DNA of 31,234 nucleotides from a virus: positions 1-31,234 of the IMG/VR virus record IMGVR_UViG_3300042691_004347; one strand, written 5' to 3'. The notes under the pieces are model-generated. The model searched no databases. It saw only the letters and a program-made list of their open reading frames with translations, and had not been told where the DNA came from. Made by a program: the position numbers and the translations under genes. Below, in pieces: positions 1,781-26,376 of the stretch (the stretch's first letter is position 1; each line of letters opens with the position of its first letter).

Positions 1781-3211
1781 ATGGCCACCTACGGATATTC
1801 GACACCTTACACCGGAATGCGACAGCCGGTACTTCCGCCCGGTTACATGGAGGCTGCCACCGCTCCGGGACGTAACCTAGCGGCAGGCATCGCGCAGCTT
1901 GGTGCTGGTATCGGTCAGGCCATCCAGCGGTATCAGGACAACAAGGCGCAGAACGAGGCTGCCATCCAAACTGGAGAGACGCTCTTCGGCATGGCACAGC
2001 AGGCATTGGCGAGTGATCCTAGCTATCAGGCACTTCAGAACTACTACGAGACTGGCCAGTTGCCTCCCGGTGTAAGCGAGGCGGATCTCAATCGGTTTAC
2101 GCAGAAGGTTCAGGCCGATCGCTCGATGCTCAACCGCATGGTGGCTATCGGTGACAAGTTCGGAGACATGAGCCTTGCGAAGAAAAAGGCAGCCATTGGT
2201 GACGTCGCGATGTTGCTCCAGCAGTATCAGCAGCGTGGAGAACAAGATCTTCAACAACAGCTCAAACGGCAGCAGATTGCGTTGGGTAATCTCCAACTTT
2301 CAGAAGCGGATCGTCTGGCCAAGCAACGTGAAGCCGAGCGCAATGCGGTTATTGGTCTTGGTCAAATCCCCACTGAGATGCCCCAGTTCCAACCCTTGCC
2401 GGTTCAGGGCGCTGGTGAGCCTTCTGCGATGCAGGACGTCCAACGGCTTCCGCCGGTTAAACGCACCCCGGAACAGATCCGGTCTGATGCGATTGCCATG
2501 TTCAGCAGCATGGGTGTGCCGGTGCAGAGTCTTGAGTCTCTGGACAAGGCCCTTATCGCTGCTGGAAAGCTGCCTCAGGTTTCAACCGAAGAGGTTCCCG
2601 GTGTTGGAACTGTTGTCTCGATGGGCGGCGAGAGGAAGCTGGTTGAGCAGAAGACGCCAACCCAATCAGACATTGCTAGGCAACGTGCTTTGACGATCGA
2701 CTTCCCAGAATACAAGGGAATCGCTCCTACAGACAAGGAGGCTTCTGACTTCCGAGAGCAGTACGCCAACGTTTTGGACAGTAAGACTACGATTCAAAGG
2801 CTGATCGAGATTGCAAACATGGGGGCAATGCAGCAGCAGAACCCTCAAGTTAAAGCTGAAGCGGCACAGCTCGTAAATGCAGCAAAGGCAAAGCTGCGGC
2901 CTGAAATCATAGGCCAAGGAGTGGTTTCAGATAAAGATCAGGCAATTCTTGATTCAATCGTCAGAAACCCGACTGAGCTGTTTTCGCTTAAGGAGTCTAA
3001 CATAACAGCGTTAAACTCTATTCTTAATCGAGCTGAGTCTGGTCTTAAGTTGAAAGCCAAAGCTATTGGCCTGAAATCTACTCAGCCAGAAACTACGGCA
3101 GAGCAATCGCAACTCGCATCCGACCCTCGTGTGGCGTCGATCAGGGCTAGGTTCCAGTCTGGATCAATTACTCGTCAGCAAGCAGAACAAGAACTCCGCG
3201 CTCTCCAATGA
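1781..3211 (+). CDS. Helical internal virion protein
   Basis: 476 residues. The ATG at 1781 is chosen because GAGGA lies 7 nt upstream and it starts just after the previous stop; an upstream in-frame ATG at 1664 would overlap the preceding gene by 115 nt. The N-terminus (MATYGYSTPY) resembles that of the 689 gene. Then come a Gly/Ala amphipathic helix (AAGIAQLGAGIGQAI) and long Gln-rich coiled coil (about residues 130-190), a Pro-rich linker, and a charged helical C-terminal half. Ending with the stop overlapped by the start of the giant polyvalent gene suggests co-production. Probably a tail or ejection protein (inference); no enzyme motif seen. Bases after about 2640 are AT-richer than those before. 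Confidence 0.85.
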   Translation: MATYGYSTPYTGMRQPVLPPGYMEAATAPGRNLAAGIAQLGAGIGQAIQRYQDNKAQNEAAIQTGETLFGMAQQALASDPSYQALQNYYETGQLPPGVSEADLNRFTQKVQADRSMLNRMVAIGDKFGDMSLAKKKAAIGDVAMLLQQYQQRGEQDLQQQLKRQQIALGNLQLSEADRLAKQREAERNAVIGLGQIPTEMPQFQPLPVQGAGEPSAMQDVQRLPPVKRTPEQIRSDAIAMFSSMGVPVQSLESLDKALIAAGKLPQVSTEEVPGVGTVVSMGGERKLVEQKTPTQSDIARQRALTIDFPEYKGIAPTDKEASDFREQYANVLDSKTTIQRLIEIANMGAMQQQNPQVKAEAAQLVNAAKAKLRPEIIGQGVVSDKDQAILDSIVRNPTELFSLKESNITALNSILNRAESGLKLKAKAIGLKSTQPETTAEQSQLASDPRVASIRARFQSGSITRQQAEQELRALQ

Positions 3212-6200
3212 CACTATCTCAGGCTGACATCGACTCGTTGCTAGGACCACAATCGGCAGGGAGCGTTGAAAGCCTGCTGGATACTAAGTTGTCCGGTGAG
3301 GACATTGCCAACGCTCTTCAGGATCCAAACTTCACGCCTACGCAGGAGCAGTATCAGCTCTTCGAGGATTACAACAAGACGCGACAGACTGACTGGCTAC
3401 AAAGCCTGCTGACCGCTGCCGATACGGTAGTCCAGACCGCTGGAGCTGCTGGTAAGGCTGCACTGACTACTGGAGCGGCGTTCAATCCCAAGAACTATGT
3501 TGAAGGCTTGGCTCAGGGCACCGCTCAGTTGTACGGGCTGGTCGCTCAGTCTCAAGATCCAGACTCAGCACTGTTTAAGCTGAACAACCTCATCAGCGGA
3601 ACCGGAACGCTTGAGAACCGATACGGTCAGTTCCTTGAGGCTCGTCAATTCAACAAGGATCTCGATGCGTATGCTAAGGGCGACATGTCGATCATGTTCA
3701 AGCCTGAGGATCTAAACCCTGAGTTCGTGCAGGGTGTGGCCATGGTTGCTGATCCGACCATGTTCGTCCCGGGTGTTGGTCAGCTTCTGGGAGCCGAGAA
3801 GGTGGCTGCCAAGGCTCTTGGAAAAGCTGTTGGAGTCGCTGGCAAGGGTGTCCAAGCTATATCAAAGCCCGTGGAGCGTCTTTCTGCTGCTACCGGAAGG
3901 TTTGTCACAGAAGCCACTGGAATCTCTCCAGAGGCCCTGCGCGGCGCGGCAACCACGTCTGGCGTTCTGGCGGCTACAGGTGTTGGCCCTGCAATCGGAG
4001 CGGTTGGAGCGGTGCCGTTCATTGCAGAAGCTGCCACCGACGTTGGACGCGCTCTGGAATCTGCCGGTGCTCAGATGGGCATGACACCGACCCGTATTGG
4101 GGCCTTGGAGGCTGTTGGAGCTATCCCAGAGGCCAACATGCGGCAAAGGATCATCGGAACCATTGGACGTTATGGTGGAGACGCTGCACTACGCACTGCA
4201 CTTGCAGGAACTGCTGGAACGCTGGAAGGCGCTGCTCTTGGTGGTGCTCTTGGTTATCTTTCTGGCGGAGAGGAAGGAGCTGCTTCCGGAATTGGATCCG
4301 GAGGTGTGGCTGGTGCTCTTGGTTCTCTTGGCGCTCGTGGTCTGCAGACACTGACCGGTAGCGAGGCAAAGGCGGCACGACTCAACGACCTGAACACCTA
4401 CGTTGACACGCTGGCACCGGAGAAGAAGGCGGCCTATCAGTCGGTCCAAGAGCGGTTCGGAACTGACACTGCGGCCAACCTGATGGATCTGGAAAGCCTC
4501 ATCAAAGGCACTCGCGGAGACATTGGTGTAGAGATCCTGCGAGGTGACGAGTTCAAGAAGCGTGCTGGTGTCACGGCTCGCGGTGTTGTCCCTGACGAGA
4601 ATGCGGCCACTCCGCGCATCCTCATCAACGTGGACGCGATGCCCAAGGTGAAGGGTGACAGCCCGATCTACACGCTGGGCCACGAGCTGCTGCACGCACT
4701 GGCAAAGACCAAGCAGTTCCAAGGCGACGTCACCGGATTTGTCGAGACCCTTACCGGAGCCTATGTGCCCAACCCGGACGGCACGGTGCGGCTGGTTAGC
4801 GAGGGGCAATACTCACCAGCCAAGGTCGAGCAGCTCTTCAACGACTACGTCAAACAATTGCCGGAGGACGCACGCGCCAACGTCATATCGGCCAACCCGA
4901 CGGCTTCTGACCGTGCGGTCTATGTTGGTGAGGAACTGGCGGCAGAGCAGGTGGGCCGGATCCTGTCGTCTCAGAAGCCAGACGCATTCCTGCGCGGGTT
5001 CGGATCTACGCGGCAGAACTTCACAGACATGCTGCTTCTTCAGGAGGCAAGCCGTGTTGGGTCAAAGATCGGTCAACTCATCGAGCGCACGTTTGGCATC
5101 ACACCAACGGACTCGGTGCTGTTCCCAGAGATCAAGAACGCCTCCCCAGCTATTGACGCTGCCCTGCGAAGGCTTCTGAAGGCCCGTGAAAACATCGACG
5201 AGGCTCTGCTAAACGCTGACTACCAGAAGTCCTTCAAGATCGACCAGAAGGCCATTAGCGATCCAGTGGCGGCGGATTACGCGGTCCGTGGTGGATTCGC
5301 TGAGCGTCTGCCTACCGGGGAGGTGCGTCTGCTGACCAATGGCGAGCTGTTGCAGCGTGAGACCCGAGACGTCACGGCGCTCAAGCAGATCATCGACGGC
5401 CTGCCCGGTGCCAAAATCGACATCAATGGCGAGGTGGTCGGCGATCTCAGCCCGGAGCAGTTGGACGCCATCAAGGGTTCTTCGGTGTCGTCTCAGATGC
5501 AGCAGCGGTTGGAGATGACCAATCGCAGCATCAACGAAGGACGGTCGCTGTTTGTTGAGTACTACCCGGCCACCGAGAAGGTTCAGGATCCCACATCAAA
5601 GCGTTGGCGCACTAAGTACGCATCAAGGCGAGTGACGTTCCGCGAGGTGCTTCCGTATAACCTGCTGCTGTCAAAGGAGAACAACTCCTACGTCAGAGCA
5701 ATCGACCTGACTCAGGTTAGGAAATCGTTGCAACGATCCATCCGTCCTGACGGCTCCGTTGGCGGCCTATGGAGCAACGTTGGTGAGTTCCTTGGTGAAC
5801 TGAACGCCTATCTGTCGAACCTCGACCGCAAAGAGAACGCAATACCTAGCCGCAAGATCTTCGGTCCGGACAAGGCTGAGTTCTTTGGGAATTTCATGAA
5901 CTCACTGGAGAAAGGTGGCTCCGAGTTCATTCACAGCTTCCGACTGGATCGCATGGGTCAGATGGATCCGTCTGATTTCAGGGCCAAGTTCTCCGAGAGC
6001 GCATACCGCAAGATGAAGGATCGCTTCATGCCTGCGGGATCCGTGGGCGAGGAGCAGGCGTGGAAGTCTGGTGCAGGCTTCACGATCCTGACCAGTGGCA
6101 ACAAGTTTCGGTTGTATGGTCCTGAAGGAAAACTCCTCGGTATCTACGACTCCGCAGAACAAGCACAAAGGAAATCAAATGCCACTAAAACAAGGCTACA

Positions 6201-8628
6201 GCCAGAAAACGATCAGCTCCAATATCCGGCGCGAAATGAAGTCGGGCAAACCGCAGAAGCAGGCAATCGCAATCGCGCTCTCGACCGCACGCAAGGCGGC
6301 CAAGAAGGCGGGCAAGCCAACCGGCAGGTTCGACAAGAGGGGGATGTAAGGTTCATGCCGGACGTCGATCCGGATCTCATTGCACTGCACAATACCAGTG
6401 AAGAAGGTATTCGCGCAGCCTTGAGTCTTGGAGGCATTCCTGTTCCAAGCATTGGGATCACCAAGAAAAACACGGCGTTCACAGGGTATGGAGACATCAC
6501 TCTAATAGCAGACAGATCCACGATTGATCCTCAGTTGGACCCTAGAAACAAGGTGTTCAGCTCTGATGTTTACTCACCGAGACAGCCAAGACCTCACCAA
6601 TCGGTTAAACGTGGAGCAGGTGACAAGGTTTATAAGAAGATGCAATCGCTGATTCCTGAAGGATTTACTAGCTGGAGCGAGATTGCCACCGGTGAAAAAG
6701 CGCACGAACTAATTGTTGACAAAGGCCCAGACAACGTTGCCAAAACGATAGACAAACTTAGCAGATCTTCTGATGTGATGGCTGCGTTCTTGTCTGAGCA
6801 AGGAGTTGCTGTTCCAAGAATAACGCAGGAGCCAAGTCTTAGGAATAGACTTCTTAGTAATGAAACAATCAAAGATCCTAGATTGAATGTTTTAAGGCAG
6901 CACAAAGATGATTTGAGTTCTTTTATAAACACACCTGAAGGAATAGCGATTGGAGACATTGTTAGAGATATTGCTTTGGATCCATACTCCTCTGATCCAA
7001 ACATGATGGAAAGGGCGAGACGAAATCTTGTCAGTAGAGTTGGAGAATACGGGACTGAGCTTCCGTTTTCAGAAGCTGCATACCTCCAATCAGACTTGGA
7101 AACAGTTGCATCTGCGAAAAAGGAAATCGACAGGTACGCAATCAAGGACTGGTTGACGGAGCAAGTTGCAAACAAAAAACCTGAGTTTGATAAATGGATC
7201 ACAAACTTGGTTGCTGATGTTTTTGACCCTCAACAGTTTATTGTTTCAGGAAAAACCAAGAAGCCTTACACGCTTGAGAACTTAGTCGGTCAAATGACCC
7301 GTAAAGTGCTGGCGCAAGAAGGTGGCATGACTTATTCACTTGGAAAAGCTAGGGCAAGCTCTGCATCTACTCTTCCAACGGTTGAGGCAATGAGATCGGC
7401 AAGTGGTTCTTTGACCGACTCATCAAAGATGAAGGAGTTTAAGGATTCACTTAGTAAGGAGTTTTCAGATATTGCCGAAACGATGTCGACGTATGATGTC
7501 TTTTCTAGTGTGTTTGATAGGATGGATAGGTTGTCTGAAGCTGTTGGTAAAATCGCAAAACGTCCAACAAGTGCTTCATCTGTTTTGTCTAGGGCTGATT
7601 TCAAAGATGTTCCTGTTGATGTTGTAAAACGAGTTCAGGCTTTTGCAGAGAAACTTAACAAAGCCCCAACTGAATACTTTGAAGCAAAGCCTCAGAGAGC
7701 TGTTGGTATCAATGAGTTCAAAGCTGCAGTTGTTCCTGAATCTACATCTCCTGAAGTTGTTAATGCTTTGAAGCAGTCAGGGTTGACCGTTGAAACATAC
7801 AAAGGTTCAGAAGATAGAGTGGCTACGGTGGAGCGTGTTTCTGGAGAAAGAAACCTTCGCTTCATGCCTTCGGACTCCGAGTACCTGTCAGCGGTACAAG
7901 CTGGGGATACGGCGAAGGCGCAGGAACTCGTGGATCAGGCGGCGAAGGCTGCTGGATATACGGTGGGGCCGGTGTATCATGGAACAAGCGCAGAGTTCAC
8001 AGAGTTCAAGCGCGGTGATCTAGGGATCCATTTCGGAACTAAAGAGCAAGCATCTGGTCGAGGTGGAACTCGTGAAATACGGGCCTTCTTGAAGGCGAAA
8101 CCAATCCGTATTGACGACGATCCCGGGTTTTGGATGGGCCGAAAGATCGTTAATTTGCTGTCGGATCAAGGAGTAAACAAAACAGAGTTAACAAAACTAT
8201 TTAACAAAGCAGCGAGCGAAGGTGGATCCTCTGGGGAGCCTAACAGTAGCGCCGACATTCTAGCTCGCGGCCTAATTGAACTAGGAATCGACTCGATTCA
8301 ATATCCAAACAAGTTTGAGGGAGTTGGTGATAGCGTTGTTGTTTTAGATCCATCCCAGATCAAATCCGCCGACCCCATCACCCGCGACGATGCCGGGAAT
8401 GTGATACCCCTGAGCCAACGATTCCAGCAAAGCAGCGCGGACATCCGGTACATGCCCGCCCCGGTTCCCGACCCATCCATACCCGGTGCCTACTCCATGT
8501 CTGGCTACCGCATCCTTCCGGGCAAGACTAAGAGCAAGCTGCGGGTCTACTCTCCAGATGGCTCATTGGCTGGCGTAGTCGGTTCCGTGGATGACGCGCA
8601 GCGGATGATCCAAAAGAAGCTCCAGTAA
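3208..8628 (+). CDS. Giant polyvalent virion protein: metallopeptidase, uncharacterised modules and ADP-ribosyltransferase-like module
   Basis: 1806 residues, ATGA-coupled to the preceding gene. Layout: residues 1-170 helical; 175-420 several Gly/Ala-rich hydrophobic stretches of the type seen in ejected membrane-active proteins; 430-600 a zinc metallopeptidase-like module with H492-E493-x-x-H496 ([10 protein letters not shown]) and candidate third ligand E575/E576; 620-935 helical, charged; 955-990 a small beta module; 991-1047 Gln/Arg-rich linker that overlaps another gene; 1048-1550 an AT-rich module opening with an ALHNTSE...GGIPVPSI...GDITLI block that I recognise from large phage and conjugative-element polyvalent proteins; 1555-1746 an ADP-ribosyltransferase-like module (Y1590-H-G-T, G1606-x-H-F-G, and [16 protein letters not shown] near its end); 1764-1806 a second copy of the small beta module. 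Four R-F/Y-M-P motifs (939, 1048, 1551, 1747) separate the modules. Polyvalent proteins are thought to act against host defences after delivery with phage DNA; delivery here is inferred from position. Confidence 0.9.
6179..6349 (+). CDS. Nested small conserved phage protein ([11 protein letters not shown] family, DUF6496-like)
   Basis: 56 residues, wholly inside the giant gene in its +1 frame. It starts [16 protein letters not shown] and contains [17 protein letters not shown], a pattern I recognise from many small basic phage proteins (usual form MPL-x-K-G-x-S-K-K-T-I, then KPxKQAxAIALSxARK), so this is very unlikely to be a chance frame. AAGGA at 6168-6172 lies 6 nt before the ATG, an excellent ribosome binding site. 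The longer in-frame ATG at 6095 is rejected because family members start at MPL. In the giant frame the same bases encode a low-complexity Gln/Arg/Asn linker. The TAA stop (6347-6349) touches the Arg codon of the second RFMP motif. Function unknown; the many Lys/Arg suggest nucleic-acid binding. Confidence 0.7.
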
Positions 8629-25328: not shown

Positions 25329-26372
25329 ATGCCCGACTTGCAGGGCTTAAAAAGCATGGAAGCAACAAATACCGGGGAAGCGACACCCTCCCAAAACACG
25401 GCACAACCGCTCAACCCGCTCCCGCTCGACACGGTGGCGTTGGCGAAACTGTTGGAGACTCGGTTTTCTGAGACTCCGAAAGCTGTCGAGGAACCGGAAC
25501 CAGCCGCTGCGAGTGCAGATGAGCCGGTCGCCGAGGAGTCAGCGTCCGAGACTGCTGAGACCGGGGAGGCGACACCCGTGGAGGATCCCGCTGAAGAGGA
25601 AACCTCTCAGCAGACTGAAGACGCTACCGAGGACGAACCGGCTGGAGTCCAGAAGCGCATCAACAAGCTCGTAGCTCAGAAGAAGGAAGCCGCAGCAAAA
25701 GCGGAAGCCTTGGAGCGGGAGCTGAATGAGGCGCGGACGAAGCTGGAAGCTCTTGAGCAGCAGGCGGCAGTACCGCAGGCGGCAGCGACGACCGACAATC
25801 CGTTCTCTGACATCTGGGACGAGGCGAAACTCAGCGATGAGTACCGCAAGGCCCGGGAGTTGAAGCGATGGTGCGAGGACAACGCTGACGGATGCGAAGT
25901 GGGCGGGAAAGAGTACAGCGCGGATGAGATCAAGGCGATTCGGCGACGAGTCGAGGATGCCTTGGATGTTCACATCCCAACGCGGCACCAGTTCCTGAAC
26001 ACTTACAAGCAAGTCCGTCCAGTTGCGGAGAGTGCGTACCCTTGGTGGAAGGACCGTAGCAATCCGACGTATTCGGAAGCGCAGCAGGTGTTGCGGCAAA
26101 TGCCACAGCTTGCGTCGTTCCCTGATTATCAGATTGCCATCGGTGACTTCCTAGAAGGTCGAAAGGCTCGAATGGAACGCGAGAAGAGTGCGAAGGCTCC
26201 TGTTAAAGCCCCTGTGAAGGTGGCTCCGAAACAGCCTGCGGCACCCAAGGCGAGTCCGGTCAAGTCTGACAAGGCCAACGATGCGGCAAGGTCTGCCAAG
26301 AAGGCGTTCAACCAAAGTGGGAGCACTGCCGATCTGTCGCGGTTGCTTCAACACACACTTCTAAAAACCTAA
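25329..26372 (+). CDS. Scaffolding protein
   Basis: 347 residues; ATG 25329, with MEATNT at 25356 an alternative start (neither has a strong Shine-Dalgarno sequence). Residues 45-105 are highly acidic and disordered (Glu, Ala, Pro, Thr), 105-150 a coiled coil (INKLVAQKKEAAAKAEALER), then a mixed domain, and a basic Ala/Lys/Pro tail (PVKAPVKVAPKQPAAPKA) ending in a helix. This is the classic scaffold arrangement, with the basic C-terminus likely binding capsid. Position directly before the capsid gene agrees. Confidence 0.85.
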   Translation: MPDLQGLKSMEATNTGEATPSQNTAQPLNPLPLDTVALAKLLETRFSETPKAVEEPEPAAASADEPVAEESASETAETGEATPVEDPAEEETSQQTEDATEDEPAGVQKRINKLVAQKKEAAAKAEALERELNEARTKLEALEQQAAVPQAAATTDNPFSDIWDEAKLSDEYRKARELKRWCEDNADGCEVGGKEYSADEIKAIRRRVEDALDVHIPTRHQFLNTYKQVRPVAESAYPWWKDRSNPTYSEAQQVLRQMPQLASFPDYQIAIGDFLEGRKARMEREKSAKAPVKAPVKVAPKQPAAPKASPVKSDKANDAARSAKKAFNQSGSTADLSRLLQHTLLKT

Positions 26373-26376
26373 TACT

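Follow-up and report, generated by a model that had tools for sequence, protein, structure and literature searches.

Among phages, a nested out-of-frame gene is exemplified by Rz1, which lies inside Rz of lambda, and embedded genes are usually taken as the younger, overprinted ones. In ssRNA phages, the embedded lysis genes are small genes placed inside a larger one, or largely overlapping it, and read in another frame (PMC7693330). The window analysed here, a viral stretch of 31,234 nucleotides (IMG/VR record IMGVR_UViG_3300042691_004347), carries a small gene, here called KQ, inside a giant gene for a polyvalent protein (Table 1). KQ is nested and conserved in this position in the related loci, is under selection in its own frame and is present in a single copy per record, and sister phages carry it as a free gene.

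Table 1. Features of the giant gene and of the gene nested in it (positions in the window)
Feature	Position	Strand	Remarks
Giant polyvalent gene, contains KQ	3208..8628	+	1806 aa
C1, internal copy of the giant's C-terminal domain, ends where KQ begins	6052..6180	+	
AAAGGA, putative ribosome-binding site	6167..6172	+	6 nt 5' of ATG 6179; group A loci, 47/66
KQ, nested gene	6179..6349	+	56 aa, PHROG 2423 family, +1 frame relative to the giant ORF
Overlap in the giant frame, low-complexity Gln/Arg/Asn linker	6181..6348	+	amino-acid constraint undetectable over KQ codons 1-44
Second RFMP motif, exchange joint for downstream cassettes	6349..6360	+	
PBECR5 nuclease-like cassette of the giant	6373..6825	+	above Pfam cut-off
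ART-PolyVal-like cassette of the giant	7972..8373	+	below Pfam cut-off here, above in L086 and L088
C2, terminal copy of the giant's C-terminal domain	8482..8625	+	

The nested gene, its family and its conservation

The initial annotation described KQ as a conserved small gene, and homologues of its product ([56 protein letters not shown]) were indeed found. The PHROG 2423 profile matches KQ with E=1.2e-19 (residues 1-44 against positions 1-44 of the 52 in the profile), and relatives are present in 140 records of named phages. These relatives begin with the same MPLK. Pfam DUF6496 is a weak relative, scoring 18.6 bits against KQ, below the curated gathering cut-off of 24, and no paper mentioning DUF6496 was found in the literature searched. 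The AlphaFold2 model of KQ, built from a 40-row alignment, is a hairpin of two helices (residues 9-21 and 26-43) with a mean pLDDT of 83. The fold search with this model gave no PDB match at E below 3, a profile search against PDB sequences returned nothing, and the best viral fold matches belong to the same family by sequence identity.

Concerning its role, the usual neighbours of KQ in other phages are major head, head morphogenesis and terminase genes. In Enterobacter phage phiEap-2 the KQ relative is located a few genes after the head morphogenesis protein, and in Pseudomonas phage PB1 it follows a putative head protein. In IMG/VR it is often placed after an apparent major head protein, and the two neighbours tested match PHROG 283. 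Moreover, in an Obolenskvirus (L254:3001-4353) the PHROG 2423 domain is the N-terminus of the head maturation protease. These neighbours and the protease fusion suggest that KQ likely has a job in prohead assembly or maturation.

A scan with the KQ-bearing stretch of the giant returned 66 loci, including contigs from earlier searches and a few identical pairs; together with the window, they provide 58 distinct KQ ORF sequences. KQ is nested in all 66, always from the same ATG and at the same offset, and no stop interrupts the giant frame along it (the L130 contig ends inside the ORF). Where the contig end does not cut it, the giant reads 234-1385 residues beyond KQ. The nested gene is the sole copy of the PHROG 2423 family in the window and in 27/27 of the nested-clade records scanned (35-44 kb). 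Two further loci with nested KQ are L198 and L227, the latter being a contig of 4.3 kb binned with a Verrucomicrobiota MAG and the only genome-collection match to this part of the giant; its bin gives a weak hint of the host, too little to name one. No named phage in the collection searched carries the KQ-bearing part of the giant. KQ nesting is a fixed trait of one uncultivated phage lineage. A chance ORF was also considered and rejected: the giant-equivalent frame is open in just 6/75 free-standing KQ homologues and, when the KQ peptide is recoded synonymously, in 3.7% of the resulting sequences, against the 66/66 loci observed.

Regarding the start of the gene, the coordinates, codon number and frame offset reported initially are all exact, and so are the distance of the ribosome-binding site from the ATG and the end of the TAA, which shares its final base (6349) with the beginning of the Arg codon in the second RFMP. 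The AAAGGA sequence is present in the group A loci, and the other 19/66 loci (group B) present a weaker sequence at this position; pairing to the anti-Shine-Dalgarno at the KQ start is -5.6 kcal/mol in group A and -1.9 kcal/mol in group B. In the window the Shine-Dalgarno match is unremarkable alone, its score being equalled by 12% of the out-of-frame ATGs in the giant; what counts is its conservation in 47 loci. It should be noted that no Shine-Dalgarno match precedes several main genes of the window phage, one of them being the SU10-type major capsid gene (gene start at 26357-26376).

The frame on which selection acts

The changes inferred among the 58 distinct sequences fall on KQ codon positions 1:2:3 as 66:29:164. 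Within the ORF, the ratio of nonsynonymous to synonymous changes against expectation (tree-classified) is 0.17 in group A and 0.24 in group B for the KQ frame, and 3.37 and 3.24, respectively, for the giant frame; since this short ORF itself provided the tree, these counts compare frames and are not calibrated rates. The giant-frame ratio above 1 mirrors the constraint on the KQ frame and should not be taken as a sign of positive selection. Had the giant frame alone been conserved across the overlap, this would have spoken against a nested gene; the reverse was seen. Directly upstream of KQ, over 45 giant codons, the giant frame shows ratios of 0.28 (group A) and 0.42 (group B), and the ratio in the KQ offset is about 2. 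The KQ ATG and the next two codons are invariant. Selection changes frame at this ATG, acting on the giant frame upstream and on the KQ frame inside. At the other end, the last eight KQ codons give low ratios in both frames (0.17 and 0.35), which would mean constraint on each, on 28 changes only.

The giant frame is nevertheless kept free of stops. Changes creating a giant-frame stop inside KQ were 0 of 222, with 4.0 expected. T occurs in 0/701 at risk positions versus 28/1363 elsewhere, which is suggestive, relatedness being uncorrected, and the parsimony count of the same avoidance is weak (0/16 changes versus 7/93 elsewhere). Since the KQ frame is constrained and the giant frame is unconstrained yet stop-free, KQ is the gene under selection and the Gln/Arg-rich stretch of the giant a passive linker. 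The comparison of both frames thus supports the initial proposal that the low-complexity linker is dictated by the nested gene.

The giant gene, its sisters and the origin of the nesting

The giant ORF presents several effector-type domains, as expected for a polyvalent protein, although of the two cassettes named in Table 1 only PBECR5 exceeds the cut-off in the window. A HELLH motif in its N-part (4681-4695) suggests a metallopeptidase, a domain common among polyvalent proteins, that might process the giant protein; no Pfam match was obtained in the N-part. In addition, RFMP/RYMP motifs at 6349-6360, 7858-7869 and 8446-8457 mark the joints between the cassettes of the giant and could be protease processing sites as well.

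Among locus pairs sharing more than 93% identity in the 400 nt that precede KQ, 49/68 are unrelated from 10 nt past the KQ stop, and the domains downstream of KQ vary by locus (PBECR5, ART-PolyVal, GNAT-like or none recognised). KQ is therefore the last conserved block before the cassette-exchange point at RFMP. It is conceivable, though rather doubtful, that the nesting is useful in itself, with the sole copy of a needed head gene between C1 and C2, at the swap junction, acting as a genetic lock on the effector array. If so, any C1-C2 deletion of the array would be lethal to the phage.

Sister relatives, found from L036, have giants of 1348-2113 residues. In L231, L232, L233, L235, L257-L261 and L263 the giant is one uninterrupted ORF with nothing nested, and KQ is a free gene 1-10 nt past the giant stop. 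The giants of L231, L232, L233 and L235 are arranged as N-part, C1, RFxP cassettes and a second domain copy (both copies were scored), and C1 is followed by a short linker in which KQ is not encoded; in L235 the giant continues beyond the second copy before KQ. The free KQ of the sisters lacks a Shine-Dalgarno match (5/5 tested), as in translational coupling. L264, whose giant C-terminus is like that of L263, has no recognisable KQ within the 14 kb examined. The combined alignment of nested and sister sequences was too divergent to serve as a search query.

At the junction, several sister C1 copies end in GAT TAT GCC or GCG (Asp-Tyr-Ala). Most group B loci read GAT/GAC TAT GCC, and the KQ start codon is formed by the same TATGCC. 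In group A the Asp-Tyr-Ala codons are absent at the junction and AAAGGA is present. The simplest reading would be an insertion or relocation of KQ led by microhomology between the TATGCC of C1 and the ATGCC of the KQ start, and from the comparison of groups A and B it is plausible that the start was improved after nesting. In the KQ tree, the nested copies do not lie beside the KQ of the sisters, and the nearest sequences are free genes of other phages (L065, L043 and L033); with a support of 0.05 at the nested node, the tree points to neither a donor nor a direction of movement.

Taken together, the data are best explained by the move of a head-module gene into the giant, and this reading is held to be probable. 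A normally free-standing PHROG 2423 gene would have moved into the linker directly behind C1 and been kept there wholly nested, so that a single mRNA would be read in two frames. Ribosomes in the giant frame would pass through KQ and produce a spacer that is rich in Gln and Arg, lacks features and connects C1 with the effector cassettes; that this frame is translated through the overlap is indicated indirectly, by its openness. Other ribosomes would initiate internally at ATG 6179, helped by AAAGGA, and make a 56-aa two-helix basic protein. The weak Shine-Dalgarno match of group B counts against internal initiation in those 19 loci. The selected product of the overlap DNA would be the small protein, and the giant frame would need only to stay open.

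A different history was proposed initially, in which KQ lay between two neighbouring virion genes that were joined into one frame by the loss of a stop, KQ surviving inside. The C1 copy before KQ does resemble a true C-terminus of the giant, and the free KQ of the sisters follows such a C-terminus. However, in the sisters the giant is already continuous from C1 to C2, with the RFxP cassettes but not KQ in this interval, and their KQ comes after C2, so that the nesting does not call for a fusion of two genes. In addition, no locus with two separate genes flanking KQ, nor any relative with KQ free-standing between two polyvalent genes, appeared among the loci found. This fusion is considered unlikely, and relocation or insertion of KQ beside C1 would fit better.

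Two other readings concern the way in which the overlap is translated. KQ could be reached by +1 ribosomal frameshifting from the giant, giving an N-part-KQ fusion instead of a free 56-aa protein; it lies in the +1 frame, which in the window is open upstream of the ATG from 6095, and elsewhere KQ is a domain of larger proteins. This is disfavoured because the 45 codons before the ATG are constrained in the giant frame only and the start is invariant; the MPLK start shared by the relatives and the ribosome-binding site of most loci also argue against it, making frameshifting highly improbable. Alternatively, the overlap could split two proteins, the part after KQ being initiated at the ATG within RFMP once KQ has terminated and the giant ORF being mostly a by-product. 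The lack of amino-acid constraint on the giant-frame linker and the presence of this ATG beside the KQ stop in 35/47 loci would agree with it. However, the giant frame is stop-free in every locus, so upstream ribosomes would always read through (openness by chance would be about 4-8% per independent sequence), the distance to RFMP varies, and the sister giants are uninterrupted without KQ. Such a split is very unlikely.

KQ and the giant among known systems

KQ is like the PHROG 2423 proteins in sequence family, length, MPLK start and [12 protein letters not shown] core. These proteins are elsewhere free-standing or the N-terminus of a head maturation protease, whereas KQ is wholly nested and has a private GRFDKRGM tail. 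In turn, the giant is like the phage polyvalent proteins of Iyer et al. (2017, PMC5512222), being multidomain with PBECR5 and ART-PolyVal cassettes, but it differs from them in that one of its interdomain linkers holds a further gene; a word search for overlapping genes in that article returned no mention. Polyvalent interdomain linkers can thus host whole genes, and gene callers that drop nested ORFs would miss them. In this lineage the hosted gene also marks the joint where effector cassettes are exchanged.

As in the embedded lysis genes of ssRNA phages (PMC7693330), a small gene lies in another frame of a larger one. The usual roles of the two frames are exchanged here, since the nested gene is the widespread one and the new sequence, a linker, comes from the outer frame. 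Along the DNA one can follow how the constraint passes from one frame to the other, and the sister phages show the un-nested state. KQ seems to be a clean natural example of reversed overprinting, in which a functional and widespread gene forces an arbitrary linker on the outer protein.
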